Positions 1,499-12,884 of a stretch of 64,000 bases of DNA are shown here, piece by piece. Each line of letters starts with the position of its first letter. The stretch's first letter is position 1. The translations under genes and the position numbers were made by a program. The DNA is taken from positions 248,001-312,000 of the forward strand of contig NZ_JACLZF010000002.1 of assembly GCF_014243345.1 (NCBI RefSeq), given 5' to 3'. The DNA is from Robiginitalea sp. SC105 (GTDB lineage: Bacteria > Bacteroidota > Bacteroidia > Flavobacteriales > Flavobacteriaceae). The notes below the pieces were generated by a model, which was not told the origin of the DNA, made no database searches, and saw nothing but the letters and a program-made list of their open reading frames with translations.

Positions 1499-1582
1499 GA
1501 GTTTGACGGTTTGGAGTATAGTCAGTTGCGAGGGTCGGCTATGAATTTTTCACGTACTCATAGCCTTCCTATGTTTGCTTTT
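1499..1582 (-). repeat. attC-like site, distal and partly degenerate
   Basis: On the plus strand the site runs from a left core whose AAC has become GAC (GAGTTTGAC, 1499-1507) to the right core GTTTGCTTTT (1573-1582). The inner stem is a perfect GGCTATGA/TCATAGCC pair around a short loop. The right core matches the reverse complement of the core at 2440-2449 in 9 of 10 positions and so delimits the cupredoxin cassette. The left core carries no intact AAC. Confidence 0.65.
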
Positions 1583-1586
1583 GTAT

Positions 1587-2423
1587 TTATTTAACTGTAA
1601 ATGATGTTATGGCTCCATCGAGCAAATGGAACTTTCCTTCAGCATTAGCCATACAAAAAAGGACATATTCACCAGAGTTAAAGTCGACATTAATTCTTGC
1701 TGCTAATTCGGGTCCGATAGCAGATGTCGCTATTATTCCTCGTGCTGGTGGGGGACCATTGTAATTAGTATACCAATTGATCACATCTTCTGCTTTTGCA
1801 TCTTCATTTAATCTTGAAATGGCTACCAGATGATATTTTGAACCTGAATTTACTACCTCGATAGATTGATTCCCTTTAGAAATAGGACTGCTTAACTCAA
1901 AGTTTTCATCGGTCATCGTTATAGTCAGATCAGATTGCGGTAAATTTTGAGACTTATCAAGTGTTCCGTAAACTTTAAAAGATTTGTGTTCGAATCCTGC
2001 GAAATGAGGCGCAGAATCATCGCCCATAACACAAACCCATGCATAGTTTCCAGAATCAAGTAGGAGTTCGATTTCACTTGACCCAGGTTCTGAAATAACT
2101 CCACCTCTGTGCGTCATCCACTTTGGTCTAACGCCTCCGGTCCTAATAGAGTCTGAATAGGTTTTTATTAATTGTTCAGTTGTATATCCCTTATCCAATT
2201 TGATAAGATGTGCAGAATGCATTCCAGATGAATTGTTCGATAGCTTCAATTTTAAGAGTCCAGCAGGAACAGAATCCGGTGCTTTAAATGAGTCATCTGT
2301 AATTACAACGGTTACATCAGAATTTACTCTTTTTACTTTATTCTCAGTATCCTTGTTTGATTTCTTGGAATTACAGGACGTTAATAGAGTAAGTAGTATG
2401 AGTGCGAAGTTTATTTTTTTCAT
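1587..2423 (-). CDS. Lipoprotein with two tandem cupredoxin-like domains
   Basis: This 278-residue protein has a lipobox (LLTSC, Cys17), so it should be membrane-anchored and face the periplasm or the cell surface. It contains an internal duplication: one repeat begins near VVITDDSFKAPDSVPAG (about 38-150) and the second near ITMTDENFELSSPISKG (about 167-278). Each repeat has a central His (GMHSAHLI; SKYHLVAI) and a distal Cys-x8-His (C..GDDSAPH; C..AEGKFH). This recalls the His/Cys/His copper ligands of blue-copper folds, although no canonical axial Met is obvious. Copper binding is therefore plausible but unproven. The gene forms one cassette: its flanking cores (1573-1582 and 2440-2449) match in 9 of 10 bases. 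The start codon lies 16 bases from the core, leaving no room for its own promoter. Confidence 0.75.
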   Translation of the reverse strand: MKKINFALILLTLLTSCNSKKSNKDTENKVKRVNSDVTVVITDDSFKAPDSVPAGLLKLKLSNNSSGMHSAHLIKLDKGYTTEQLIKTYSDSIRTGGVRPKWMTHRGGVISEPGSSEIELLLDSGNYAWVCVMGDDSAPHFAGFEHKSFKVYGTLDKSQNLPQSDLTITMTDENFELSSPISKGNQSIEVVNSGSKYHLVAISRLNEDAKAEDVINWYTNYNGPPPARGIIATSAIGPELAARINVDFNSGEYVLFCMANAEGKFHLLDGAITSFTVK

Positions 2424-2439
2424 AAAGTTGGTTTTAAAT

Positions 2440-2498
2440 AAAAGCTAACAGTTTCGTATAAGCTGCGAATGAATGCAGTTCATACATTGTTGTACCAC
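2440..2498 (-). repeat. attC-like site (short type)
   Basis: On the plus strand the left core AAAAGCTAAC (2440-2449) is followed by an inner arm that pairs with the arm before the right core GTTGTACC (2489-2496). The arms GTATAAGCTGC and GCAGTTCATAC form an imperfect stem. The site separates the cupredoxin and NTF2-like cassettes. Confidence 0.8.
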
Positions 2499-2504
2499 GT
2501 AATG

Positions 2505-3056
2505 TTATTTAGCCTTTACTTGAATTAATTTTCCTTCAGGCATACTCATATCTCTATGGCCTCCAATTACAAGCCACTTTTCGTTCTCCTTGATCATGAA
2601 GTCACTCCATCTAAGAGTACCTTTAAACGTATTTCCTTTCGTCCTTCCATCCGGCTTGTCTTCTCCCTGATATATGAATGTTTCTGTATGGGTATAGTGT
2701 GCAATGGCAGATCTTCCATCATTTGACAAACGAATGGAAATCGGCGTAACCTCCATTTCTATACATTCTTCCTGTTCTTTCATGATTGCCCAAAAGCCTG
2801 CTATCTCTTCTTTTGTTGTCAGTTCATCCTTTCCTGACGCCCATCTTTTCCACTCAGGATGATAATATGCCAGATAAGTATCAAAATCATTGTCTTTCCA
2901 CGCTTTAAATCGACTTTCAATCGCATTCCACACTTCCTGCTCAATTTGCTGATGATTTAATACTTCTTCGTCAACAGTGTTGGTTGACTTTTCATTCTCA
3001 TTGCATGACAATAATACAAGGCCTAATACAGCCATTGAGTATAACTTTCTCATCAT
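2505..3056 (-). CDS. NTF2-like (SnoaL/DUF4440-type) lipoprotein
   Basis: This is a protein of about 183 residues with a lipobox (LVLLSC, Cys18) and a single NTF2-like domain: an Asp-rich N-terminal helix region (SRFKAWKDNDFDTYLAYYHPEW), then beta strands around an ALAHYTHTE-like segment and a C-terminal WLVIGGH strand. Such domains bind small molecules or act as isomerase or dehydratase folds, and no catalytic residue can be assigned. An upstream in-frame ATG at 3077 exists, but its codons lie inside the attC core (3071-3078). I therefore take the start at 3056 (MMRKLY...), or equivalently 3053. The cassette ends match perfectly over 8 bases. It is one of three NTF2-like genes in the array. 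Confidence 0.75.
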   Translation of the reverse strand: MMRKLYSMAVLGLVLLSCNENEKSTNTVDEEVLNHQQIEQEVWNAIESRFKAWKDNDFDTYLAYYHPEWKRWASGKDELTTKEEIAGFWAIMKEQEECIEMEVTPISIRLSNDGRSAIAHYTHTETFIYQGEDKPDGRTKGNTFKGTLRWSDFMIKENEKWLVIGGHRDMSMPEGKLIQVKAK

Positions 3057-3070
3057 TTTTGATTTTATGA

Positions 3071-3181
3071 GGTACAACTGCCTGGCTGTGACTCTTGGCC
3101 GAGCATCAAGCGGTTCCGTTTGACTTCTAAGTTAGCAAAAAGGATCAGTCGAAGGCCTATGAGTAAGAGCCGTTGGGGTGC
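3071..3181 (-). repeat. attC-like site (long type)
   Basis: On the plus strand it runs from GGTACAAC (3071-3078) to GTTGGGGTGC (3172-3181). The arms around GGCTGTGACTC and GAGTAAGAGCC pair, with a long loop that contains TTCTAAGTTAGCAAAAA. Much the same loop text occurs in the long site at 8512-8628. The right core does not match the core at the other end of the next cassette (3563-3569). Confidence 0.75.
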
Positions 3182-3188
3182 ATTGCTA

Positions 3189-3557
3189 TTAATAATCCAA
3201 TTGCCTGAAATGCCACATTACCGTATCTGGTAAAATGGTTACTACAATTTTCTTGTCTAATGGAGCGCCGTTCGCGTAGTAACCGTTCATGAAATGGTCC
3301 ATTTGAAGATTCTGACGTTTTAAGTCCAGGATGTACGTGCCGTCGCTTTGTTCAAATTCCATAGAAAGAAATCCTTCAAATGTCTCATTTGGCTCCAATG
3401 CATGCAGCTCTAATGTATCCTTACCGCCGGATGTATAAAATTTGATTTGCGTAATGGCATTTTCTGATTGGTTTACCAGCTGAACTTCAACTCCTTTTGA
3501 ATCGGAGTTTTGGCAAGAAATAACCAGAAATACAACAATTGCTTTAAGCGCTTTCAT
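3189..3557 (-). CDS. Small uncharacterised lipoprotein
   Basis: This is a 122-residue protein with a lipobox (FLVISC, Cys15) followed by a beta-rich domain of about 100 residues with no motif I recognise. It starts only 5 bases from the left core of the attC-like site at 3563, so it has no promoter of its own. It is the one cassette whose two boundary cores do not match: GTTGGGGTGC on one side, and GCCTAAC on the other, where TGCACCCCAAC was expected. That suggests a past fusion or deletion joining two cassettes. No function can be assigned. Confidence 0.65.
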   Translation of the reverse strand: MKALKAIVVFLVISCQNSDSKGVEVQLVNQSENAITQIKFYTSGGKDTLELHALEPNETFEGFLSMEFEQSDGTYILDLKRQNLQMDHFMNGYYANGAPLDKKIVVTILPDTVMWHFRQLDY

Positions 3558-3562
3558 ATACT

Positions 3563-3620
3563 GCCTAACGGGTAGTTTATGGGGTTGTCTTAATACCGCT
3601 TATATAGAGTTAGCAGCAAT
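3563..3620 (-). repeat. attC-like site (short type, classical cores)
   Basis: On the plus strand the left core GCCTAAC (3563-3569) fits RYYYAAC exactly, and the right core GTTAGCA (3609-3615) is close to GTTRRRY. The arms TAGTTTATGGGG and ACCGCTTATATA pair imperfectly. The 8 bases GCAGCAAT (3613-3620) recur inverted at 4566-4573, marking the other end of the next cassette. Confidence 0.8.
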
Positions 3621-3622
3621 TT

Positions 3623-4552
3623 TTAATTGTCAATTCCAAATTTGAGTTGTCGGTTGTATTCTTCTGAAGAGAAGGTGCCTTTTGAGTCCTTAATCAGATT
3701 TCCTTTACTCATCGTCCAAAGCTCGAATCCACTAATTTTCACTTTATGTCCCTTTCCGTTGCGGTCCGCATCCGTTCCAGTTAATGTCCAATGAAACGCT
3801 ACTCCATCCGGTTTGGGAGTTAAACTATCAAAACGAACCTCCATATCTGGAAATTTGGTCATAAAACTTTGTGCAACGTTCGAAATGGCAGATCTCCCGG
3901 TTGCAGAATCTCCTTCGTTGACTTGTAACGATCCATCTTCTTCAAAAAACATAGCAACAAACTCCGGTCGCTTCCCGCTCCAGGCCTGGGCATAGCCTTG
4001 GGCAAAAATGTTTATGTCAAATTTTCTTTTTTCTTCAGATTGTTCATGTGCGGTCCAGCCTATACTCAGAAGTTTCCATTGTTTATTTTCTTTGATGAGT
4101 ATCATATGGTTAACTTCTCTTAAGCCAGGAATACCAAAACGATTTACAACCGCATCTGCTCTTACCAGGGCCATACGTTCTTCAGTAACCAGTATATCAT
4201 AGTCGCCCACTATTTCAATATAGGGTCTGAGTTCCCTGTTCTCAATGTTTTTGATGTATTCATTTATTGTTACTTCGGTATTTTTCCATACACCATCTTG
4301 CTCCCTGGTATATCCTATCACAGCCTTGTCAAAGGTGAGATTGTCCAGTTCTTCCAGATTATAGTTACCAGCTGCCCTGAATATCTTTTCTACGGCAGCT
4401 ATTATTTCACCTTCTTCATTTGAAGTGGAATTTATTGTGCCGGATGCTGCCTCTTCACTTATATCAGTTGTATCCCGATTGAACTGACAACTCACAATCA
4501 GCAAGAAGAGTAGTGAAGATGATAAAATGTGAATTCTCGAATTTCTATTCAT
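3623..4552 (-). CDS. Lipoprotein with two NTF2-like domains
   Basis: This 309-residue protein has a lipobox (LLIVSC, Cys22) and two successive NTF2-like (SnoaL) domains, at about 45-165 and 172-305. The first contains YNLEELDNLTFDKAVIGYTRE and WKLLSIGW. The second begins AQGYAQAWSGKRPEFVAMF and includes SAISNVAQSFMTKFPDMEVRF and FHWTLTGTD, the typical pattern of a SnoaL-like polyketide-cyclase fold. No catalytic acid/base can be assigned with confidence. It is preceded (on its strand) by a collapsed attC remnant at 4566-4600 and followed by an intact site at 3563-3620. Membership in the array rests on an 8-base match, with the AAC core lost at its upstream end. Confidence 0.75.
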   Translation of the reverse strand: MNRNSRIHILSSSLLFLLIVSCQFNRDTTDISEEAASGTINSTSNEEGEIIAAVEKIFRAAGNYNLEELDNLTFDKAVIGYTREQDGVWKNTEVTINEYIKNIENRELRPYIEIVGDYDILVTEERMALVRADAVVNRFGIPGLREVNHMILIKENKQWKLLSIGWTAHEQSEEKRKFDINIFAQGYAQAWSGKRPEFVAMFFEEDGSLQVNEGDSATGRSAISNVAQSFMTKFPDMEVRFDSLTPKPDGVAFHWTLTGTDADRNGKGHKVKISGFELWTMSKGNLIKDSKGTFSSEEYNRQLKFGIDN

Positions 4553-4565
4553 TATGAGTTGAATT

Positions 4566-4600
4566 CATTGCTGCGCATTTTTTTAAGCCCTTGTTGTGTG
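4566..4600 (-). repeat. Collapsed attC remnant
   Basis: Only 35 bases remain where a site of 57 or more is expected. On the left, ATTGCTGC (4566-4573) is the reverse complement of 3613-3620, but the following TAAC is replaced by GCAT. On the right, GTTGTGTG (4593-4600) pairs with CACACAAT at 5127-5134 in 7 of 8 bases. The inner stem is gone, so this site should no longer recombine. Confidence 0.65.
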
Positions 4601-4630
4601 AACGCTTTTTTATTTTATAATCTGCCTGAG

Positions 4631-5074
4631 CTATTCAGCAACTACTTTTGATGACTGTCTTGCTGCCAGTTGCCATCCACTTTTGGTTTTTATCCAAACA
4701 TTGGTGAATCTCCTCGGTATCCATTCCTCACTGTTGGGGTTCATATTTGAAGGCTGTTGCAGCTCCTTACCCATTACAATGGCAATGTCCTGATTGAAAG
4801 TTATATTTTCAATAATTCGTTTAACTGCGGGAAATTTATGCCCGCCTTTCATAAGCGCCACAATATCCTGGGTCGTAACAATTTTTCCATTTGGGTTATT
4901 CACCACATAGTTTTCTGACCAAATTTCCAGTAATGAGGTTGTGTCCCCCTTATCGAGCAATTCGGTCCAGTGTTTTTCCAGTTTCCTGATATCCATTTCA
5001 TCATCTGATTGCCCAAAAGCAAATGTGGCAACGAGCATGAGATTTAGTAAGAAGCAACAGCATGTTTTCATCAT
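4631..5074 (-). CDS. Exported NTF2-like (DUF4440/SnoaL) protein
   Basis: This 147-residue protein has a signal peptide (about 1-21, ending AFAFGQ) and one DUF4440-type NTF2-like domain. The helix LEKHWTELLDKGDTTSLLEIWSENY is followed by VVNNPNGKIVTT and ends in RRFTNVWIKTKSGWQLAARQS, where the W..W..VARH-like strand is characteristic. It has no lipobox. The gene lies 52 bases from its upstream core, a longer leader than in its neighbours. The cassette ends match in 7 of 8 bases; the mismatch falls on the core base itself (AAT instead of AAC at 5134). Confidence 0.75.
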   Translation of the reverse strand: MMKTCCCFLLNLMLVATFAFGQSDDEMDIRKLEKHWTELLDKGDTTSLLEIWSENYVVNNPNGKIVTTQDIVALMKGGHKFPAVKRIIENITFNQDIAIVMGKELQQPSNMNPNSEEWIPRRFTNVWIKTKSGWQLAARQSSKVVAE

Positions 5075-5126
5075 TCAAATGTTTAGAGGTAAATATCCTT
5101 TTGTTTTTAGAGGGGTTACTAGTTGA

Positions 5127-5188
5127 CACACAATGGTGTGGGTATAGATCGTGCCTTATGGCATGACCTATATCCTATGTTGGGCGCA
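5127..5188 (-). repeat. attC-like site (short type, strong stem)
   Basis: On the plus strand it runs from CACACAAT (5127-5134) to the right core GTTGGGC (5179-5185), an exact GTTRRRY. The arms GGTATAGATCGTGCC and GGCATGACCTATATCC form a long stem around TTAT. The ten bases 5179-5188 are the exact reverse complement of 6225-6234. Confidence 0.85.
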
Positions 5189-5197
5189 GTTTATTTC

Positions 5198-6213
5198 TTA
5201 CTTCGCATCGAGATTTAAAAACCTTGCAGCATTATTGTAAAAAATATCTTCTTTCTGTTCCATTGAGAGGAAAGGTGCTTCATTGATTACTTCGATGGCA
5301 CGTCCCAATAGCTCAGGAAATAGTATCATGTCTGAGCCGAACATAATATGCTTTCCAAATCCAGCGCTGACTAATTTTTTCAGATGATATTCATAAAAGT
5401 ACTCACGAGGATAATAGACCTGTATACCACCAATGTCGGCGTAAATCTGCGGGAAATTACCCATCATCGCGATTAACTCATCTATGAATGGTTCACCGTA
5501 ATGCATAACGGATATTCTTAATTTTGGGAACTTCCGGATAATTGGCTCCAACTCCAATGGATTGGAGAGGAGAGGGGTCATTTTTGGTTCAAAATAGAAA
5601 TGGCCTGGAAGTCCGCTTCCCATATGAATCGCAATGGGAATGTTCAATTCTTCTGCCAGGGCATAGTAAGGATGCATTCGAGAATCCGAGGGTGCAATAC
5701 CTTCATATTGATTAGAGATTTCGCCCAGCACTTTAAAGTCATGGTTTTTAACGAGTGATCGGAGGCTATCTGGATCAATGCTGTCACGGCCTATTCTGTA
5801 TTGTGAGCTCCGAATAATTTGCTTGCCAATCCGCTCTTGAAGGAATATTACATCTGGAGGGGGCCACTGGTCACAGCCCCAACAATATTGTACTGTTCAA
5901 ATTGTTGCCTTATACGCCGTACAAATTCTTCATAGGATTTGGGGGCCCAAATTGGATCTTCACATTCTGGATTTTGAAATTTCTCGTTCCAAAGTTCCAG
6001 ATAATTGTCTCTTGGATCAAAGTGTTGTATCGTATTAATTATTGGTAAACATATGGCGCCATTTGTGAATTCTTCCTCAAATGACGAATGCACATGCATA
6101 TCAATTATGGGTCCTTTATAAACCTCATTGCCTTCAGGGTTTGATTTTGTTTCTCTTTTCGAGTTACACCCTATTAGTAATACTGTTGCGAAATATATTA
6201 GAATTACTCTCAC
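5198..6213 (-). pseudogene. Amidohydrolase-2 family lipoprotein, frameshifted
   Basis: One gene is split by a single-base frameshift. The upstream part (6213-5848, 121 codons) has a lipobox (LLIGC, Cys16), the metal motif DMHVH (His40, His42) and ends ...GAVTSGPLQM before a TAA. Reading on in the other frame from the G5 run at 5859-5863 gives PPDVIFLQERIGKQII... and joins seamlessly to the downstream part, with IAIHMGSG, SVMHYGEP, FGSDMILF and NNAARFLNL. One extra base in the G run (G6) would restore a protein of about 338 residues resembling the 570-1484 amidohydrolase. It could be a true null, phase-variable slippage at the homopolymer, or a sequencing error. It is a perfectly delimited cassette (10 of 10 matched ends). 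Confidence 0.85.
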
Positions 6214-6224
6214 GGTTTAATGAT

Positions 6225-6361
6225 TGCGCCCAACGTTTAGTATATGAAAAGTAGGCGATTTCGAATCATCAAACTTTCGGTTGAGCACCAAATTCGACAC
6301 AAGTCAAAAGACTTAGTTTTAGAATTTTTTCGCCTATTTTTTATATACATTGTTACCTTCA
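6225..6361 (-). repeat. attC-like site (long type)
   Basis: On the plus strand TGCGCCCAAC (6225-6234) contains an exact RYYYAAC core, and GTTACCTTCA (6352-6361) closes the site. The arms around GTATATGAAAAGTAGGCGA and TCGCCTATTTTTTATATAC are nearly complementary. The right core also contains the stop codon of the deiminase gene. Confidence 0.85.
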
Positions 6362-7588
6362 GTTTAATTTAGGTTCTTGCTGTGTTCTACAGTGAATACC
6401 TCCGCCTCCCCAGTTAATGGAGAGTGCATCCATCATGATGATATCACGATTTGGGAAATATCTTTCCAGAATAGTACGAAGCTTTTTATCTTTCGTTTTC
6501 TCAGAGTCAGGCATTCCTTCCTTCCAATATTTAGAAGCGATCACCACCCCATTTGTAATTGTGAAATTGGCATATTCAAGGGCAGGAACCATGATAATGG
6601 AATCCCCTAAAGAAATCTTCTCTCTTTCTTCCTGGTTAAACAAACCATAATAAAGCGGTTCGTTCATGACCCATGGAAAACCATGCAACGAATAATCAGG
6701 TGCTTCTATAGTTTCGATATGGTAGGGTTTTCCATTGGGTTGCCTTGCTTTTTTTAGTTGAATGAGATTTTCTTGAAAAACATCGTAGTCATGAGCTAGC
6801 AAAGCATTTTTATCCCGATCATCTTCACTAATAACAGTAGCTAAAATTGTGGTATCATTTAAAAAACGAGTTGTTACATCAATATGGCCATTGGCTCCTT
6901 GCCCTACGAATCGATCAATTTTCAACATAGGTTTATCAATCAGAGGAAACCTGTCTAGCCAAATAATTTGCTCTTTTCCCAGCCTGGTCAGTAGAATTTT
7001 CTCTACTTCCTCAATTGTTTTATCAGTGTTGCGCTGAGTTGCCAAGACCTTGTAAGCAATGATTGTATTACTGTTTACCTCAATTGCTCCACCTTCAAAA
7101 TATAAACCAGTCGAATCTTTTTCATAACCATAAAGTTTTTGAAGTGTATTTGAAAGCTGCCCTCTAAGATCATCTTCACAATTATAAATCCCGTAGCAAC
7201 TCCATTCAAAATCAAGAATTTTAACTTGATCTCTATTTGTCACAAACATGAGTGGATCTCTCATCCATGAGGATTGGTAAGGAAGCTTGATAAATTCAAG
7301 ACTGTCGAAATTTGCTTCTAATTCTAACAGAGATGACTTTCCTACTTCCATAAGCGAATCATTATCGTAGACCACTTTAGTTTTTACATACCTTGAAAGT
7401 ATTGAGATCAGTTCTAGTCGTGCCCGTTCGTTTGGTACACCATTGTATGGTTCGAAGTTGAAATCTGCCCAGATTGCTTCATGTGGCTCCCATTCGGGTG
7501 GATAAACGTATTGTTTTTCCGAATTACCTGTCGAAGAGCATCCAATGATTAAAGTGGATATGAGTAATATTGAAAAAAATTCTTTCAT
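6359..7588 (-). CDS. Peptidyl-arginine/agmatine deiminase family lipoprotein
   Basis: This 409-residue protein is numbered from the ATG at 7588. An earlier in-frame ATG at 7678 would place the lipobox internally and run through the attC site and the neighbouring gene. The lipobox is LIIGC (Cys17). The guanidino-group-modifying fold is well marked: SWMRDP (Arg110-Asp111), LYFEGGAIE (Glu165), GHIDV (His235, Asp237) and the catalytic Cys400 in GGGGIHCRTQQEP. The family hydrolyses agmatine to N-carbamoylputrescine and ammonia, or citrullinates peptidyl arginine (Porphyromonas-type PAD). Cell-envelope anchoring favours an extracytoplasmic substrate, but this is an inference. The cassette ends match over 10 bases, and the TGA stop lies inside the matching core (6359-6361). 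Confidence 0.88.
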   Translation of the reverse strand: MKEFFSILLISTLIIGCSSTGNSEKQYVYPPEWEPHEAIWADFNFEPYNGVPNERARLELISILSRYVKTKVVYDNDSLMEVGKSSLLELEANFDSLEFIKLPYQSSWMRDPLMFVTNRDQVKILDFEWSCYGIYNCEDDLRGQLSNTLQKLYGYEKDSTGLYFEGGAIEVNSNTIIAYKVLATQRNTDKTIEEVEKILLTRLGKEQIIWLDRFPLIDKPMLKIDRFVGQGANGHIDVTTRFLNDTTILATVISEDDRDKNALLAHDYDVFQENLIQLKKARQPNGKPYHIETIEAPDYSLHGFPWVMNEPLYYGLFNQEEREKISLGDSIIMVPALEYANFTITNGVVIASKYWKEGMPDSEKTKDKKLRTILERYFPNRDIIMMDALSINWGGGGIHCRTQQEPKLN

Positions 7589-7598
7589 TTTTAGTAAT

Positions 7599-7664
7599 TG
7601 AAGGTAACGGTGAGTGTATGAGCCGTATCCGTTTGCATATGGCTTACAAACAATGTTAGCCACC
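7599..7664 (-). repeat. attC-like site (short type)
   Basis: On the plus strand the left core TGAAGGTAAC (7599-7608) and right core GTTAGCCACC (7655-7664) enclose arms TGTATGAGCC and GGCTTACA plus an extra TAT/ATA pairing. The TAA stop of the next gene (7656-7658) is embedded in the right core. Confidence 0.85.
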
Positions 7665-8498
7665 CATTTCATTTTCAATGTATTCAGTCAATACAAGATT
7701 TGTTTTACTTCCATCAATATTGGTGTAATTCAATTTAACGAAACCATATTTTGGATGGAAGTAGGCGACAAGTTCCGTTGTACCAATTTCGCTTGCCGCT
7801 GTTGATTCAATTACAAGACATTCCAATTCTCCAAGTGGAGTTTTAATTACTGCCTTATCGGTTATTTTGTAGTTATATGTGTTGTCAATATTACCATCCC
7901 AGGTTTTCCATCGCTGGTCGCCCCATTTACTTCCTATCTTTAAATTCCAAGTCCATTCCGTTCCTACCGCATAGGGCGCTTTTATGTAGGGAAACGGATT
8001 TAACTCCAGGATTTTAAAATAGTGATCGCGGGGTGGGTGAGCCCAGACATTGGCTTCATTCTCGATAACCCCTGACATTGAGAATGGCTCACCTTCCAAA
8101 AAAATGTACGCAATTGTGGTCTGATTATAATCTGGCACATATTGTGCCATAGGGTTGCCGGCCATAACCTGGATAACCACAGATTTGATGGTCCTGGAAT
8201 CGGCTTTATCCACCGCGACAAAATCCCAACTTTTTTGATCCGAATTGACTTTAAAATATAGTTGCTCTCCAGCTGCTGTGAGATGCTCAAAGGCATATTT
8301 AAATGAGGTTCCTGGCTTAAAAACACTATTATTTGTATTGTACTTGTTTTCATCCACGTTGATTGAATCAAATTTTTCGACCAGGATTCCATCGTTATCC
8401 GGTACTAATTGATAGTCATTTTTGGAATTATTCCCAATCGACTGACTACACACCGCTATTGGAAATAGGAGTAAAAGTAAAATTCGGATTGATTTCAT
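7656..8498 (-). CDS. Uncharacterised exported protein
   Basis: This 280-residue protein has an N-terminal signal peptide (LLLLLFPIAVCSQ; a lipobox reading with Cys17 is possible but weak). The rest is a beta-rich domain (AYFHPKYGFVKLNY, AVIKTPLGELECLVIESTA) resembling DUF3108/TapB-like periplasmic proteins in layout, with no catalytic motif. The stop codon TAA is formed by the GGCTAAC core of the attC-like site, so the gene fills its cassette completely. It starts 13 bases from the opposite core. The cassette ends match in 10 of 10 bases. Function unknown. Confidence 0.7.
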   Translation of the reverse strand: MKSIRILLLLLFPIAVCSQSIGNNSKNDYQLVPDNDGILVEKFDSINVDENKYNTNNSVFKPGTSFKYAFEHLTAAGEQLYFKVNSDQKSWDFVAVDKADSRTIKSVVIQVMAGNPMAQYVPDYNQTTIAYIFLEGEPFSMSGVIENEANVWAHPPRDHYFKILELNPFPYIKAPYAVGTEWTWNLKIGSKWGDQRWKTWDGNIDNTYNYKITDKAVIKTPLGELECLVIESTAASEIGTTELVAYFHPKYGFVKLNYTNIDGSKTNLVLTEYIENEMGG

Positions 8499-8511
8499 AA
8501 ATGCAATTAAT

Positions 8512-8628
8512 GGTGGCTAACGGTTTGGGTATGGCTCGTGGCAAGCGCCACGAGCTTTTTAGTATGTTCTTAAGTTAGCAAAAAGCGACCAAGCGGAGAG
8601 CCATGAGCTATACCCGGTGTTGTGCATA
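8512..8628 (-). repeat. attC-like site (long type)
   Basis: On the plus strand it runs from GGTGGCTAAC (8512-8521) to GTTGTGCATA (8619-8628). The arms GGGTATGGCTCGTGGC and GCCATGAGCTATACCC are almost fully complementary, and the left arm carries a further GCTCGTGGC/GCCACGAGC hairpin. The internal text TTCTTAAGTTAGCAAAAA is shared with the site at 3071-3181. Confidence 0.85.
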
Positions 8629-8629
8629 G

Positions 8630-9067
8630 TTATTCCTCCCCGGCTCCGACAACTTCTAGCATCCATCCTTGCTTTGACGGAATCACTCTACCCCATACAT
8701 GTGCGCCTTCAATTTGATGATAGATGGAGAAATTCAAAGTATCCTTTTCTAATCTGTTTATTTTTAATATTATAGCATCTTTAATTTCTTCACGCGCAAT
8801 AGTAGTTGAATCAACTATTCTTACCGTATAGCCAAATTTATAGACCGTTAAAGAGTCATTGATAAAACTAGATTTTAATATTTTCAGCGGTAATCTTTCA
8901 GGCACTTCACCGTGTAGCCACTGTTGAAGGATAGGGGCATTCAATATGAGTTGAACAATCTCTGCATGATCAATATCCTGTTGATTGTTGACATTGTTGT
9001 TCGAACTATTTTCCTTGCACCCTATCAGAATAAGCAGCAGTATGTAGAGGTAGGGTAAATTTCTCAC
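8630..9067 (-). CDS. Small uncharacterised lipoprotein
   Basis: This 145-residue protein has a strong lipobox (LILIGC, Cys17) and an Asn-rich linker. A compact alpha/beta domain of about 110 residues follows, ending in a WMLEVVGAG strand. No family is recognised. The layout (helix EIVQLILNAPILQQWLHG followed by strands) could suit a small ligand-binding or assembly lipoprotein, but nothing specific is visible. It is a tight cassette: the start is 10 bases from one core and the stop one base from the other, and the two cores match over 10 bases. Confidence 0.7.
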   Translation of the reverse strand: MRNLPYLYILLLILIGCKENSSNNNVNNQQDIDHAEIVQLILNAPILQQWLHGEVPERLPLKILKSSFINDSLTVYKFGYTVRIVDSTTIAREEIKDAIILKINRLEKDTLNFSIYHQIEGAHVWGRVIPSKQGWMLEVVGAGEE

Positions 9068-9077
9068 ATTTCACAAT

Positions 9078-9212
9078 TATGCACAACGCGTCGGCTATGA
9101 GTAGTTGCGTGGTTTAGCACTTAACTTTAAAAGTACATACCAAACTGAAAATCCTTGAGGATTTTCAGAAGTAGGCGAGAACAAGCAATTACTTATAGCC
9201 ATTGTTGTGCTT
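9078..9212 (-). repeat. attC-like site (long type)
   Basis: On the plus strand it runs from TATGCACAAC (9078-9087) to GTTGTGCTT (9204-9212). The arms CGGCTATGAGTAGTTGC and GCAATTACTTATAGCC pair strongly. The loop contains a secondary CTGAAAATCC/GGATTTTCAG hairpin (about 9144-9168). Confidence 0.85.
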
Positions 9213-9215
9213 TCG

Positions 9216-9956
9216 TTATTTTTTTCTTTGTTTTAATTCATTTTTAATTTGCTCCTGTACTGTCATATTCTCTTTTATTCCTCTTTTATAATTACTATTC
9301 ATATACGAATAAAAACCAATAGCTTGTTTTAATACTTCTTGAAAATAGATGTTATTTTGTATTTCTGCTAGGTTCACGGGCTCTGCCCATCGTTGGGACA
9401 AATCACCTCTAAATATCGTCTTGATATTCTTATATGCTTCAGTCTCATGCAATGATTTCACATGCTCATAATCGGACCTTAAATCTTCAGTTAAGTAGAA
9501 ATATTTGAAATCATACAATTCAGAAATAGCAATTCTGAGCGAATCATTATGAATGATGTCTATTCCTTTAGATTTTAGATTTTCATAAGCGACAGTTATT
9601 GGTTCAAAGTTACCTCTTCCAATTATTCTAGCATAAGACCATTTTAATGAATCAGTTAAGGGTGTTCTCTGTTCTAAATGCTCCAAAACGTCTCTGTTGA
9701 GTTTGGTTTTATCATTATTATACGTAATCTTTGAATTAAGGTTAATGACATCCTTTTCAAGGTTTACTAGAATTTCACTTAAAATATTCGTTTCAATTTT
9801 GTGTTCTATTCTGTTGTTATTCCAATTATTGATTTGAAGTGCAATTAAAATTCCAATAACCACAAGCACAATTTCTCCAATCGCATACTTTAAATACTTT
9901 ATAGTTTTACCTTCAGAGAGTAAACTTTGTCTAATTTTTCTAAAGAATTTAATCAT
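9216..9956 (-). CDS. DUF6090-family membrane-anchored protein
   Basis: This 246-residue protein has the conserved flavobacterial N-terminus MIKFFRKIRQSLLSEGK, then a single transmembrane segment (about 26-43, AIGEIVLVVIGILIALQI) followed by NNWNN. It continues as a charged, helical extramembrane domain. The pattern is that of DUF6090, a family of unknown function often found in multiple copies in Flavobacteriia. Unlike the other cassette genes it has a membrane anchor rather than a cleavable signal. The flanking cores match over 9 bases and the start lies 22 bases from the upstream core. Confidence 0.8.
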   Translation of the reverse strand: MIKFFRKIRQSLLSEGKTIKYLKYAIGEIVLVVIGILIALQINNWNNNRIEHKIETNILSEILVNLEKDVINLNSKITYNNDKTKLNRDVLEHLEQRTPLTDSLKWSYARIIGRGNFEPITVAYENLKSKGIDIIHNDSLRIAISELYDFKYFYLTEDLRSDYEHVKSLHETEAYKNIKTIFRGDLSQRWAEPVNLAEIQNNIYFQEVLKQAIGFYSYMNSNYKRGIKENMTVQEQIKNELKQRKK

Positions 9957-9978
9957 TTGTTATTGGTTTCTGGTAATG

Positions 9979-10035
9979 AAGCACAACGGTAAGTATATGA
10001 GCCGTTTCAATGGCTTATATACATTGTTGTAGCAT
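9979..10035 (-). repeat. attC-like site (short type, reference example)
   Basis: On the plus strand it runs from AAGCACAAC (9979-9987) to GTTGTAGCAT (10026-10035). The inner arms GTATATGAGCC and GGCTTATATAC differ at one base pair and enclose a short loop. This is the cleanest site for folding and model building. Confidence 0.88.
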
Positions 10036-10036
10036 G

Positions 10037-11056
10037 TTATTCTTTAACATCATTAATATAGAAAAAGCCTTTCATTACGGGAATGTATACGTTCTCAATC
10101 AATGTCCACCAAGAATCTGAATTATCATTTGATTCATTGAACTGAACCAGGTGATTTCCATATGCTCTTCTTATAGCTGAATTCATTTGAGGATATGGAT
10201 TGTTATTTTCAAAATACTCTTGAATATATTTCATCCTTTTTTTATCCGAGGCCAATTCTTTAAAATAAGAATTTACCTCATTAGACTTACTGTAGCTAGT
10301 CCAATCATAATTTGGATTTTTTTCTACTCTCTGAATAAACCTTTCTATCCTGCCTTGCCATAAAGTTCGATTATCATACTTTTCATGAAAGAAGTAAAGA
10401 GTTGGGTTATTGATTTTTAGGATAGAGTCTGAAAATATTCTAGGGCGAAAAACCTCTTTATTACTGCTTGGTTTGAATTTCTTAAATTCTGATGATTCAT
10501 ACGATTTAACCTCATCATAATATTTGTATTCAGCAGCAATTGAGTCTTTAATATCAGTAAAAACCATCATGGCCTGAACGAATACAATGCCAAGAACTCT
10601 TTCAGGATAATTTTCTGAGAGATAAAGCATGTTCTTTGCAGCAGGCCCTTTTCCGAAAAAGAATGCTTTTTCAATTTTCAAATAATCCATAAAGGAAATT
10701 AAATCTTCAACCTGTGACTTAACACTCCAATTTTCTGGAGCATCGTCAGTTTGACCAAATCCTCTATTTAAAGGCGCTAACACATGATATTTATCAGAGA
10801 AGGATTGACAAAAATTAATCCAATTATTGTTTGTTTCAACTATAAATGGTTCGTCAGAACTTTCATCAAAAAAATTATGGGCGCCTTGAATATTTATTAT
10901 GTGGGTGCCTTCACCACCGAAATCTATATATTCTACGGTAAGTCTGTCGGTAGTTACTAATTTGGATATATAAGCTTTGTTTTGGGCATTAGCTACTAAA
11001 GGCAGAAATAATATCATGCCTATGCAGGTTTTAAATATGTTTTTAAAGTTCATCAT
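10037..11056 (-). CDS. Exported alpha/beta-hydrolase-fold protein, nucleophile missing
   Basis: This 339-residue protein has a signal peptide (about 1-24, ending LVANAQ). The alpha/beta-hydrolase core is recognisable: HIINIQGAHNFFDE (oxyanion-loop position), HVLAPLNRGFGQTD (the family's D-x-R-G-x-G-x-S region), and the strand-turn-helix of the nucleophile elbow. At the elbow the sequence is FFGKGPAAKN (about 133-142) instead of G-x-S-x-G, so both the Ser nucleophile and the second Gly are absent. Classical hydrolase activity is therefore unlikely, and a binding role or a different chemistry is possible. It is the recombinase-proximal cassette, 7 bases from the core at 11064-11073, with ends matching over 10 bases. 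Confidence 0.75.
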   Translation of the reverse strand: MMNFKNIFKTCIGMILFLPLVANAQNKAYISKLVTTDRLTVEYIDFGGEGTHIINIQGAHNFFDESSDEPFIVETNNNWINFCQSFSDKYHVLAPLNRGFGQTDDAPENWSVKSQVEDLISFMDYLKIEKAFFFGKGPAAKNMLYLSENYPERVLGIVFVQAMMVFTDIKDSIAAEYKYYDEVKSYESSEFKKFKPSSNKEVFRPRIFSDSILKINNPTLYFFHEKYDNRTLWQGRIERFIQRVEKNPNYDWTSYSKSNEVNSYFKELASDKKRMKYIQEYFENNNPYPQMNSAIRRAYGNHLVQFNESNDNSDSWWTLIENVYIPVMKGFFYINDVKE

Positions 11057-11063
11057 TTATAAT

Positions 11064-11118
11064 ATGCTACAACGTATGAATATAGTGCGTTATGCACTAT
11101 ATGCGATCTATGTCTAAG
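11064..11118 (-). other. Candidate attI-like primary recombination site
   Basis: The junction between the recombinase gene and the first cassette has one normal core, ATGCTACAAC (11064-11073), and a perfect hairpin TATAGTGC/GCACTATA (around GTTAT). On the recombinase side there is no matching GTT core, only AGACATAG-type sequence overlapping the recombinase stop codon (11114-11116). A site with a single intact core beside the recombinase is what an attI would look like, but a degraded attC cannot be excluded. Confidence 0.5.
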
Positions 11119-12238
11119 ATAACAAATCCACAATCCCCTTGAAGGAACTTTCTGCAACATGCGTATAAATCTCGGTGGTTTTACTCGAGTTGTGGCCCAA
11201 CAGGACCTGGATTTTACGCAGATCCACGCCCTTATCCAGCAGGTGGGTGGCAAAGCTGTGGCGAAGCATGTGGGGAGTAACGCGTTTTTTTATGCCCGCC
11301 CTTTCGGCGGCAGCTGCTACAATGCGCACCACGCTGGTAGCCGAGTAGGGGCCTCCCCATTGCCCCTCAAATAAGTAGTCCCTGGGCTGATAGCGCTCAA
11401 GGTATTCCTCAAGTTCCGGGATGAGGTTGGGGCTGAGCACCGAGTACCGGTCTTTCCTTCCCTTGCCCTGGCGGATATGTACCAGCTTGCGCTTAAAATG
11501 CAGATCGTCCGACTTAAGGGAGAGCACTTCTGCCCGGCGCAATCCGGAGGCATAGAGCAAGCCCACTATGCACCGGTGCTTCAGGTTGGAGATCGCGGCC
11601 CGAAGCGCAAGTACTTCTTTCACCGAAAGCACTTCCGGTAATTTGCGCGTCTTTCGAGGGCGCTCAATGCTGTAGAACCGGTTGGGCATGCCGAGGACCA
11701 CTTCGTAATAGAACTTAATGCTGTTGATAGACAAATTGATATAGGAATCCGATTTGTCTCCCCGGGCCAGCTCCAGTAGGTAGTCCCTGATGGTATTTTC
11801 ATCGACCTCCTCCAGCGGGGTAGGGTCTACATGTCGCATGAAGGCGCTGAAGCATGAGATGTAGTTCCGGGCCGTGTTGTCGGCGTATTTTTTCAACTCG
11901 AGCTTGTCCAGATAGGCTTTGGGAAAATTTTCGGCCTTGAGACGTTCCCAGGTTTCCTGACGCTGGGCAAACCGATCGGCCGGCTGGTAATCGGGGATGG
12001 GTTTGGAACCGAAGAAATAATTCCCGTTGATCCAGGCAATCCCCTTGAATTTGCTGAATAGGAGTTTAAGGTTCTGGAGAGTATTCGGTATGAAGTACAT
12101 GCCGAACGGGTCGGACCAGGCCACATCGGGCAATTGCTCCACCAGGGCTATTAAAACGCGATCGGCTTTGAATTGCAACCCGATGCAGCGTTCGTCTCCA
12201 ATTAACAGGTGCTTTAGGGTGATGCTTTTGTTGAGCAT
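11114..12238 (-). CDS. Tyrosine recombinase associated with the cassette array
   Basis: This 374-residue protein is numbered from the ATG at 12238. A longer in-frame reading to 12346 adds 36 residues unlike the family. All catalytic residues are present: Arg234 (ASGLRRAE), Lys259 (QGKGRKDR), His323 and Arg326 (HMLRHSF), His349 (LLGH) and Tyr358 (EIYTHV). A SAM-like core-binding domain spans about 108-190. Residues 1-107 form an extra N-terminal domain (SITLKHLLIGDERCIGLQF ... INGNYFF) absent from XerC/XerD and IntI1. The IntI-specific insertion before the HxxR motif is missing: only about 60 residues separate Lys259 from His323. It is co-oriented with the cassettes and ends at the first recombination site, so read-through from its promoter could transcribe the array. 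I infer that it moves the cassettes. Confidence 0.9.
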   Translation of the reverse strand: MLNKSITLKHLLIGDERCIGLQFKADRVLIALVEQLPDVAWSDPFGMYFIPNTLQNLKLLFSKFKGIAWINGNYFFGSKPIPDYQPADRFAQRQETWERLKAENFPKAYLDKLELKKYADNTARNYISCFSAFMRHVDPTPLEEVDENTIRDYLLELARGDKSDSYINLSINSIKFYYEVVLGMPNRFYSIERPRKTRKLPEVLSVKEVLALRAAISNLKHRCIVGLLYASGLRRAEVLSLKSDDLHFKRKLVHIRQGKGRKDRYSVLSPNLIPELEEYLERYQPRDYLFEGQWGGPYSATSVVRIVAAAAERAGIKKRVTPHMLRHSFATHLLDKGVDLRKIQVLLGHNSSKTTEIYTHVAESSFKGIVDLLS

Positions 12239-12490
12239 GGAGGTGAAACATGACTGCCTTAATTTTATATGTGAAGGTGCTAAAAACAAGCAGTTCGCTA
12301 TGGAAAGGGAAGGGAGATTACCTTCGCTTCGCTCGGTGATCTCCACAGGCTCCCATGCTGCAAATGCAAACCCTGCCCTGGCTCCGCCAGGGCGGTTTCG
12401 TGTCTCTATTCCCCCCGTTCAAGCGAGCTTGACGCGGTTCCCAGAAACACGAAACCCCACCGGTTTCCCGGCGGGGTTTGCGAGTGATTG
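12239..12490. other. Recombinase leader region with three hairpins
   Basis: No gene is seen here. It holds the tmRNA terminator (12452-12479), a perfect GCCCTGGC/GCCAGGGC hairpin (12375-12393) and a third imperfect inverted repeat GAGATTACC/CGGTGATCTC (about 12310-12341). The recombinase promoter should lie between these and 12238, but I see no strong TAnnTTTG element. Confidence 0.5.
12452..12479 (-). terminator. tmRNA terminator
   Basis: The inverted repeat AAACCCC-CCGG / CCGG-GGGGTTT lies about 12 bases beyond the tmRNA 3' end and ends in a T-run on the minus strand. Confidence 0.75.
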
Positions 12491-12884
12491 TGGAGCCGGG
12501 GAGATTCGAACTCCCGTCCAAACAAGCAATAACCATGCTTTCTACGTGCTTAGTCCCCGATTGATTGTCGACGCGCAACTGACCGGGGACGGCCTATTAC
12601 GCGCTTAGCTTCTTTGGGTTTATGCGGTTAGCGAAGCAATAACCACACTATGTTGACTTTTATGGTGCCCCTGAGTGGATCGCCGTCAACAAGGGCTATC
12701 CCGGGACATCTCGCTTCTCCGCCTTGCGGAGACGAGGCATTATCCTACTCTAATTCGGATTATGCGGCGAGAGCGTAATTATTATCGCCAATTAAAAGTG
12801 TGAAACATGAGATTTACGAGCTGTATCCCAGCGCTCGGCATGCTTACATCGCCATTGGTCTTGCTGTCAAAACCAGTCGGCCCC
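12491..12884 (-). ncRNA. ssrA: Transfer-messenger RNA (tmRNA)
   Basis: The 5' end GGGGCCGACTGG (12884 downwards) pairs with the 3' end GGCTCC followed by discriminator A (12491). A TTCGAAT T-loop and GGACGGGAGTTC arm mark the tRNA-like 3' domain. The tag reading frame (12789-12760) encodes GDNNYALAA and stops with TAA, matching the YALAA-ending degradation tags of Bacteroidetes. The CCA end is not encoded. The RNA rescues stalled ribosomes together with SmpB. Its 3' end faces the tyrosine recombinase; ssrA 3' ends are common integration targets, but I found no second copy of the end sequence in the window. Confidence 0.95.

Follow-up and report, generated by a model that had tools for sequence, protein, structure and literature searches.

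An integron-like array behind a tyrosine recombinase gene

The stretch of DNA examined here, referred to as the window, comprises 64,000 nucleotides of Robiginitalea sp. SC105 (Flavobacteriaceae; contig NZ_JACLZF010000002.1, positions 248,001 to 312,000). The subject of this report is an integron-like array of gene cassettes within the window and the tyrosine recombinase gene at its head. The recombinase gene, an attI-like site and about 11 cassettes follow one another on the minus strand downstream of the transfer-messenger RNA (tmRNA) gene, and the array extends to position 1499 (Table 1). The attC-like sites at the cassette ends are lettered K to A from the recombinase outwards. Proximal sites are intact and distal ones are decayed.

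A sequence-only reading of the window had proposed ten minus-strand genes bounded by such sites. The array was confirmed. Eleven genes were counted, one of them split over two frames, and four of the sites (E, D, C and A) have decayed. That reading was silent on the recombinase gene (11114-12238), the attI-like palindrome (11080-11102), the non-IntI identity of the recombinase and the family-wide spread of the sites.

The mechanical open reading frame (ORF) of the recombinase begins further upstream than 12238, and an alternative in-frame start lies upstream at 12346. The products of the cassette genes in the window were judged by eye to be mostly exported or lipoprotein-like. Rfam models matched the tmRNA and one further sequence below threshold, with no match in the array at E≤1.

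Table 1. Features of the array and its surroundings, in window coordinates, from the tmRNA gene to the distal end. CM, covariance model; core values are matching bases between the two cores of a cassette.
Feature	Position	Strand	Evidence
tmRNA gene	12488-12884		Rfam
Tyrosine recombinase gene, 374 aa	11114-12238	minus	start placed by relatives
attI-like site, imperfect palindrome, short spacer and GTT	11071-11102	minus	arms 11094-11102 and 11080-11088; GTT 11071-11073
Cassette 1 gene, alpha/beta hydrolase	10037-11056	minus	Pfam Abhydrolase_1 1.1e-9
Site K (attC-like), end of cassette 1	9978-10035	minus	CM E=2.9e-10; core 10/10
Cassette 2 gene, DUF6090	9216-9956	minus	Pfam PF19578 7.9e-11
Site J (attC-like), end of cassette 2	9078-9213	minus	CM E=5.8e-20; core 9/10
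Cassette 3 gene, small putative lipoprotein (by eye)	8630-9067	minus	ORF
Site I (attC-like), end of cassette 3	8512-8628	minus	CM E=5.2e-12; core 10/10
Cassette 4 gene, putative exported protein, no Pfam match	7656-8498	minus	ORF
Site H (attC-like), end of cassette 4	7599-7664	minus	CM E=1.4e-4; core 10/10
Cassette 5 gene, agmatine deiminase-like putative lipoprotein	6359-7588	minus	Pfam PAD_porph 8.4e-48
Site G (attC-like), end of cassette 5	6225-6361	minus	CM E=5.1e-13; core 10/10
Cassette 6 gene, amidohydrolase split over two frames	5198-6213	minus	ORFs 5848-6213 and 5198-5731
Site F (attC-like), end of cassette 6	5125-5188	minus	CM E=7.9e-5; core 10/10
Cassette 7 gene, DUF4440/SnoaL-like	4631-5074	minus	Pfam 8.6e-14
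Site E, decayed	4569-4602	minus	core 7/10; missed by CM
Cassette 8 gene, SnoaL-like putative lipoprotein	3623-4552	minus	Pfam SnoaL_2 2.2e-11
Site D, decayed	3560-3618	minus	core 7/10 with E; missed by CM
Cassette 9 gene, small protein, no Pfam match	3189-3557	minus	ORF
Site C, R'' side decayed	3069-3181	minus	core 6/10 with D and (R') 9/10 with B; missed by CM
Cassette 10 gene, DUF4440	2505-3059	minus	Pfam
Site B (attC-like), end of cassette 10	2440-2498	minus	CM E=3.5e-5; core 9/10
Cassette 11 gene, putative lipoprotein, weak EfeO-like match	1587-2423	minus	NCBIfam 2e-4, far under cut-off
Site A, distal end, decayed, without GTT	1499-1582	minus	cores by eye, 9/10 with B; missed by CM

Cores pair within cassettes

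Cores were located at all twelve sites in the window. The start and end cores of each cassette, from the recombinase outwards, matched in 10, 9, 10, 10, 10, 10, 7, 7, 6, 9 and 9 of 10 bases. The 110 off-diagonal pairs had a mean of 4.8/10 and none reached 9. The diagonal sum of 97 was reached by 0/100,000 random pairings, the best of which scored 85. For the decayed sites E, D, C and A the core positions were chosen by eye, a bias towards matches, and the values for cassettes E-D (7/10) and D-C (6/10) are also seen off the diagonal. The case therefore rests on the six proximal cassettes, which match in 9-10/10 bases. The figures of the sequence-only reading for reverse-complementary cores (five at 10/10, then 9/10, 7/8, 8/8 and 9/9) were reproduced.

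A covariance model (CM) was trained on sites from other genomes, with no window site in the training set. It found seven window sites, K, J, I, H, G, F and B, at E≤1.4e-4. All seven are on one strand and inside the array, and there was no match elsewhere in the window. Over the whole genome nine matches were obtained at E≤0.1, the seven array sites and two elsewhere (E 0.002 and 0.008).

The same pairing was found in relatives, where genomes, contigs and loci are designated G, C and L. Of 247 neighbouring site pairs from the first group of arrays, 143 matched at 7/7 core bases and 43 at 6/7 (186/247 at 6-7/7). At this level only 14/289 matches were found within one physical site and 157/3,627 (4.3%) among random pairs of one array. 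A recombinase fragment (L061) and a locus with no recombinase (L063) were excluded from the site counts. Real pairs thus lie far above randomly paired cores, in the window and in the relatives alike. Cores are diverse, with 146 distinct seven-base cores among 291 cassettes.

Strand-asymmetric folding of the cassette end sites

The first energy comparison used a scanner biased to A.C mismatches and was replaced by a strand-neutral one covering 262 pairs and 321 sites in 33/39 loci. The circular form was more stable as the bottom strand in 249/262 pairs, as the top strand in 11, and tied in 2, with a median of 3.7 kcal/mol. Limits of this set are that its 262 pairs were selected at ≥6/7 core bases, so that positions 1-7 pair by construction, that the scanner demands hairpins and that 94/262 pairs span another called site. 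Beyond the selected core, position 8 was an A.C mismatch in 226/262 pairs, and positions 9 and 10 were paired in 226 and 244, respectively. Position 8 of R' was A in 290/291 cassettes. Over the nine inner stem positions there were 343 A.C mismatches and 63 G.T.

Alignment of the bottom strands of 40 diverse sites gave 20 stem pairs, 14 of them with compensatory changes. One G-U pair was fixed in 40/40 sites and another in 33/40. A one-base bulge at alignment column 28 was present in 12/40 sites, and a conserved pair of extrahelical bases was not evident. We infer that the fixed wobbles mark the strand, the role that extrahelical bases have in canonical attC sites. Folding had been put forward earlier as a check on the sites, and by computation they do form strand-asymmetric hairpins with covarying stems. 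With the mark lying on the antisense strand of the DNA, an RNA hairpin is an unlikely target of selection.

The attI-like site

Recombinase genes of this clade are adjoined by a palindrome of varying sequence, a spacer of 3-6 bases and GTT. A palindrome score of at least 6 was found in 26/39 loci and in 5/693 shuffles; among distant relatives, five loci (L078, L082, L086, L093 and L103) did not reach 6. In the window the attI core matches that of site K in 7/7 bases. Across loci, the seven bases after the attI GTT matched (6-7/7) the end core of a site ≤3.5 kb away in 27/33 cases, while attI cores swapped between loci matched in 79/1,024. This count covers loci with more than 3 kb downstream and a GTT tied to the palindrome, and supersedes an earlier one of 29 loci that accepted any GTT within 170 bases.

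Comparison of related loci had been suggested by the sequence-only reading. In three of eight pairs, the congeneric pairs G596/G104 and G595/G103 and two copies in one genome (G578), the DNA was conserved through the recombinase gene and palindrome to the GTT and unrelated beyond it. No pair among the eight stayed alike across the attI GTT. The G578 copies (L241/L242) are two integrons with 81% identity between their recombinase regions, a likeness that stops at the attI GTT.

TAnnTTTG is the -7 motif of Bacteroidota promoters. As a candidate cassette promoter ahead of attI, it was present in the sense direction in 9/43 leaders and in the antisense direction in 3, against a mean of 1.7 and a maximum of 6 in 500 base shuffles, an enrichment confined to a minority of leaders. 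By eye, the motif was not seen in the leader of the window.

The recombinase is not an IntI

Six residues, R234, K259, H323, R326, H349 and Y358, are invariant in 29/29 aligned clade members; we take them to be the catalytic residues from XerD numbering. Pfam identified SAM-like and catalytic domains only, and an N-terminal part of about 100 aa is conserved and lacks a Pfam match. An AlphaFold2 model had a predicted template modelling score of 0.49, and domain packing was not read from it. The best sequence and fold matches are XerA-type proteins (4a8e and 5hxy).

We considered whether the locus is an ordinary integron with a divergent IntI. Its cassette logic, the G/TT motif, an adjoining attI and hairpins of the bottom strand are as in integrons. 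Vibrio IntI4 (2a3v) is the second best PDB sequence match, and the recombinase passed the NCBIfam model NF040815 (228.8 bits, above its cut-off), whose description contains "integron integrase". The IntI model TIGR02249, however, gave 192.4 bits, under its cut-off of 265. The alignment to 2a3v jumps residues 206-245, which are the IntI insertion, and the corresponding region has 18-19 residues in 29/29 clade members but 59-60 in 32/32 IntI proteins. According to the portion of PMC3053210 consulted, insertion residues K209, Y210, W219, P232, H240 and H241 of VchIntIA touch the extrahelical bases of attC.

Trees were made from selected rows (80 and 55 of 145; L077, L135 and duplicates were excluded). 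IntI formed one clade separate from the window-type recombinases in both (SH-like approximate likelihood-ratio test, SH-aLRT, 100; 100/100). The window-type recombinases were placed within a Bacteroidota radiation of XerA-like proteins (SH-aLRT 95), with only 88/76 in the second tree. An approximately unbiased (AU) test did not reject a tree in which the window clade and IntI were constrained as one group (p=0.121). This counts in favour of a divergent IntI, and a claim of proven independent origin was dropped on its account. Around 30 canonical IntI genes of Bacteroidota, with flanks of ≤1.5 kb, the CM gave a single match (E=0.36). Judged by the insertion, the recombinase is not an IntI, and an ordinary IntI integron is very unlikely.

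Two other identities were rejected. A XerA or XerC/D dimer recombinase serving as a core gene would not be as patchy as this gene, which had a match in 2/10 genus genomes (E≤1e-60) and was full length in 33/199 family genomes. A phage, integrative and conjugative element or island integrase was set aside on the Pfam result, as there is no arm-binding domain. The last 12 bases of the tmRNA had no second exact copy in the window, a search that did not extend to imperfect repeats. Four further tyrosine recombinase genes are present in the same genome.

Distribution of recombinase and sites

Relatives of the recombinase (≥374 bits, 49-100% identity over most of the length) were found in 33/199 sampled genomes of the family, its own genome included. 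Named close relatives are from Winogradskyella, Seonamhaeicola and Maribacter. Below 374 bits there were fragments or broken copies in some more genomes (e.g. G018, G048, G050, G086 and G088) and more distant proteins. In L036 (G104:C3) the recombinase reading has two stop codons, yet 13 sites were called behind it.

The CM matched 134/149 family genomes, one per genus, at E≤1e-4. Since 15 of these genomes had supplied training sites, the independent tally is 119/134. In 42 non-Bacteroidota loci (660 kb) there was a single match (E=0.004). Stretches 84-97% identical to site J are present in many family genomes. Many of them likewise contain DNA about 80-88% identical to the beginning of the cassette 2 DUF6090 gene (9809-9990). 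One locus, L045 (G040:C1:3128000-3147900), has 27 well-scored sites in 18 kb. Most measure about 125 nt, their hairpin arms being near-identical and their cores different, and this array, the cleanest one, looks superintegron-like.

Around distant recombinase relatives there were 40 matches in 11/34 loci, every one on the opposite strand from the recombinase; two of the loci scanned, L082 and L103, had each supplied one training site. The matches include Rufibacter, Algibacter onchidii, Flavobacterium enshiense and a Persicobacter plasmid. Cores clearly paired in L078, L082 and L103. Similar recombinases (36-43% identity) occur in L087, L094 and L097, labelled Undinarchaeales, Spirochaetota and Firmicutes, with a GTTATG-type core downstream of the recombinase in L094 and L097. 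Transfer or mis-binning is possible for these three.

Cassettes shared between arrays

Ten stretches of similarity linking the arrays of different genomes were examined. Four of them begin at GTT (L042/L051, L044/L086, L037/L052 and L041/L046) and in L040/L047 the similarity ends at GTT. In L046 the cassette shared with L041 is the first one at attI. The L044/L086 stretch is 97% identical over 636 bases between G056 and Algoriphagus ornithinivorans. Homologues of window cassettes begin at GTT in 3/5 cases (G673, G523 and G498). Those of cassette 10 in G673 and G523 keep the end core and have a different hairpin body, and that of cassette 6 in G498 has the identical base change in both cores. 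The earlier expectation that cassettes would be gained or lost exactly at the cores in related strains agrees with 5/10 shared pairs and 3/5 homologues, the remainder not being sharp; these comparisons are between species.

There were 26 homologous cassette pairs, 15 within one array and 11 between arrays; some of the 291 cassettes overlap or are composite, which affects several of the 15. Both cores differed together in 3/11 cross-array pairs. Genes and cores can, by these alignments, stay together while the hairpin body is replaced, and the simplest guess is conversion between sites of one array.

Such exchange of bodies is also what one would expect if the hairpins were terminators or repeats like repetitive extragenic palindromes, homologous recombination reshuffled the array and the recombinase was unrelated. 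The near-identical hairpin arms within L045 fit this, as do several contigs whose ends lie no more than about 220 bases past the recombinase, which is expected of repeats. Repeat recombination would break within the bodies, however, and not at GTT. It also leaves unexplained why cores pair within a cassette but not within a site, and why different first cassettes lie directly behind the attI GTT. We regard this explanation as extremely unlikely, even more so than a divergent IntI.

ORFs in the 291 cassettes were sense in 241 and antisense in 11, and 39 cassettes had no ORF of at least 50 aa. Cargo was scanned in 100 of 202 distinct cassette ORFs. These 100 proteins matched 98 Pfam families, none of them in more than 3 proteins. 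The 25 families shown include amidohydrolase, sulfotransferase, superoxide dismutase, KAP NTPase, a SLATT protein and a reverse transcriptase, the last of which carries matches to defence models.

A probable chromosomal integron of a Bacteroidota kind

Taken together, the array is very probably a Bacteroidota kind of sedentary chromosomal integron. The sequences themselves show the layout, the pairing of cores, covarying hairpins, an asymmetry between strands, differing first cassettes behind conserved attI sites and cassette breakpoints at GTT. The insertion at G/TT proposed by the sequence-only reading is likewise supported by cores, folding, attI and cassette breakpoints, the checks it asked for having had a mostly favourable outcome.

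In the proposed mechanism the recombinase would recognise two kinds of site, a double-stranded attI behind its own gene (palindrome, spacer of about five bases, GTT) and the attC-like site that ends each cassette. The bottom strand of the latter would be extruded to form a long hairpin, in which fixed G.T wobbles (A.C mismatches on the other strand) serve as the mark. Exchange at G/TT would then insert a circular cassette behind attI or excise cassettes. The two cores of one cassette would be reverse complements, and neighbours would differ, because the TT and the next bases travel with the cassette. Catalysis by the window recombinase, a folded single strand as substrate and, by analogy with IntI, resolution by replication are presumed.

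Several observations weigh against this interpretation. The evidence is wholly comparative. No site matching the attI core was found within 3.5 kb in 6/33 loci, and the first called site was the match in just 17/33, a figure that owes something to false sites called by the scanner. Five of the eight related locus pairs lose similarity before the attI GTT or have none, and hence provide no test. Sites are commoner than close recombinases (134/149 genomes and 33/199, respectively). At the search cut-off there was no match in 8/10 genus genomes or in 12/18 checked genomes, mainly genus mates. Among distant relatives, one of the four L093 pairs had matching cores, whereas L086, L096 and L100, with few called pairs, had no such pair. 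Shared stretches begin or end in genes or continue into similar hairpin arms in 5/10 cases, and the window-cassette homologues in G503 and G595 (2/5) begin inside a gene. Finally, hairpin bodies failed to align over their length in 9/11 cross-array pairs though the cores pair, a count blurred by L044/L086, where the hairpin behind the L086 gene seems absent. Unaligned bodies with paired cores are not predicted by exchange at R' alone.

A related question is whether the window array is an idle relic, formerly built by such an integron. The four decayed distal sites, the cassette 6 gene in two frames, the genus genomes lacking a match and the interrupted recombinase of G104 would be in keeping with this. 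The window recombinase, though, has an open frame with all invariant residues, and the six proximal cassettes retain their near-perfect cores. We consider a relic unlikely, though much less so than the other alternatives.

Comparison with known systems

The locus resembles IntI superintegrons in having a tyrosine recombinase, an adjoining attI, cassettes mostly in one orientation, folded end sites, the G/TT motif, a favoured bottom strand and, in some arrays, near-identical sites. It differs in that the recombinase lacks the IntI insertion, has the conserved N-terminal part of about 100 aa and is co-directional with the array, attI lying at the 3' end of its gene. Canonical integron cores follow the consensus RYYYAAC/GTTRRRY. 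Here, by contrast, there are seven-base cassette-specific cores and a fixed A.C position, and a conserved pair of extrahelical bases is not evident.

Xer and XerA proteins share the best sequence and fold matches and the absence of the IntI insertion, but the window gene is patchy and accessory, has an array behind it and carries an N-terminal extension. In the Treponema type of integron the integrase is in reverse orientation, so that integrase and cassettes run in one direction with attI behind the integrase. Orientation and attI position are shared with the window, while the integrase of that type is an IntI. IntI integrons of Bacteroidota are from the same phylum but have a canonical IntI, with a near-absence of window-type sites around the 30 genes scanned (≤1.5 kb).

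For Bacteroidetes, PMC9024848 gives only In0 elements from earlier work and a single complete integron, that of Salinibacter ruber M1. Excerpts of PMC8618304 and PMC9668308 list Bacteroidota among the phyla with integrons. In our sample, IntI was over the curated cut-off in 84/296 genomes of the phylum, in contrast to the few in Bacteroidetes given by the excerpted survey, and none was listed in the family of the window at E≤1e-50. Extracts of PMC8138268 call the insertion essential, yet not fully conserved in an integron-like subgroup; those extracts mention no arrays for the subgroup, which may contain patchless relatives. By title or start of abstract, we found no description, in the openly licensed PMC literature, of an array of cassettes in Bacteroidota accompanied by a recombinase other than IntI.

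By the available sequence tests the locus behaves as an integron, and by the defining insertion it is not of the IntI type; it would thus be a new form of integron. A bolder proposal is that the integron principle, in which a double-stranded attI captures cassette sites folded from single strands, has a second and separate origin in Bacteroidota in a XerA-like recombinase with no IntI insertion, that G.T-wobble marks and cassette-specific seven-base cores replace the extrahelical bases, and that this is the main cassette platform of the whole family. We advance it tentatively, as a possibility that falls somewhat short of even chances.

A platform with neither feature would be missed by surveys keyed to the IntI insertion, by which one survey selected integrons according to the consulted section of PMC2426708, or by attC models trained on IntI systems. 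Lack of the usual recognition feature may be why such gene shuffling has been overlooked. If the interpretation holds, the IntI insertion is dispensable for cassette exchange as such, there is a second solution to strand choice, and the origin of integrons becomes testable through swaps of enzymes and sites. It would also explain a pool of species-specific small genes in the family, some of them defence-like (e.g. the reverse transcriptase).

Surroundings of the array

Just beyond the distal array end lies an amidohydrolase gene (570-1484) whose product has 38% identity over 178 residues to part of the cassette 6 amidohydrolase (5198-5731). It may be a former cassette. This protein was not found in any of the six loci searched, so that no clean empty site was obtained.

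On the other side, the DNA downstream of the tmRNA is conserved in the genus to about position 12314. In one congener (L226, G201:C1:1540000-1554600) about 9 kb is inserted at the tmRNA 3' end, and the last tmRNA bases (12504-12488 in the window) recur at the far side of the insert, which looks like a tmRNA-targeting island distinct from the integron. Another congener, G202 (C6:52031-52971 and C12:61-176), has several repeats of a segment of about 100-115 bases that lies just downstream of the tmRNA, at about 12447-12333 in the window. A further one, G200, has its integron elsewhere but retains beside its tmRNA (L231) fragments resembling cassette 2 and site J (9987-9814 and 9229-9141 in the window), perhaps the remains of an array.

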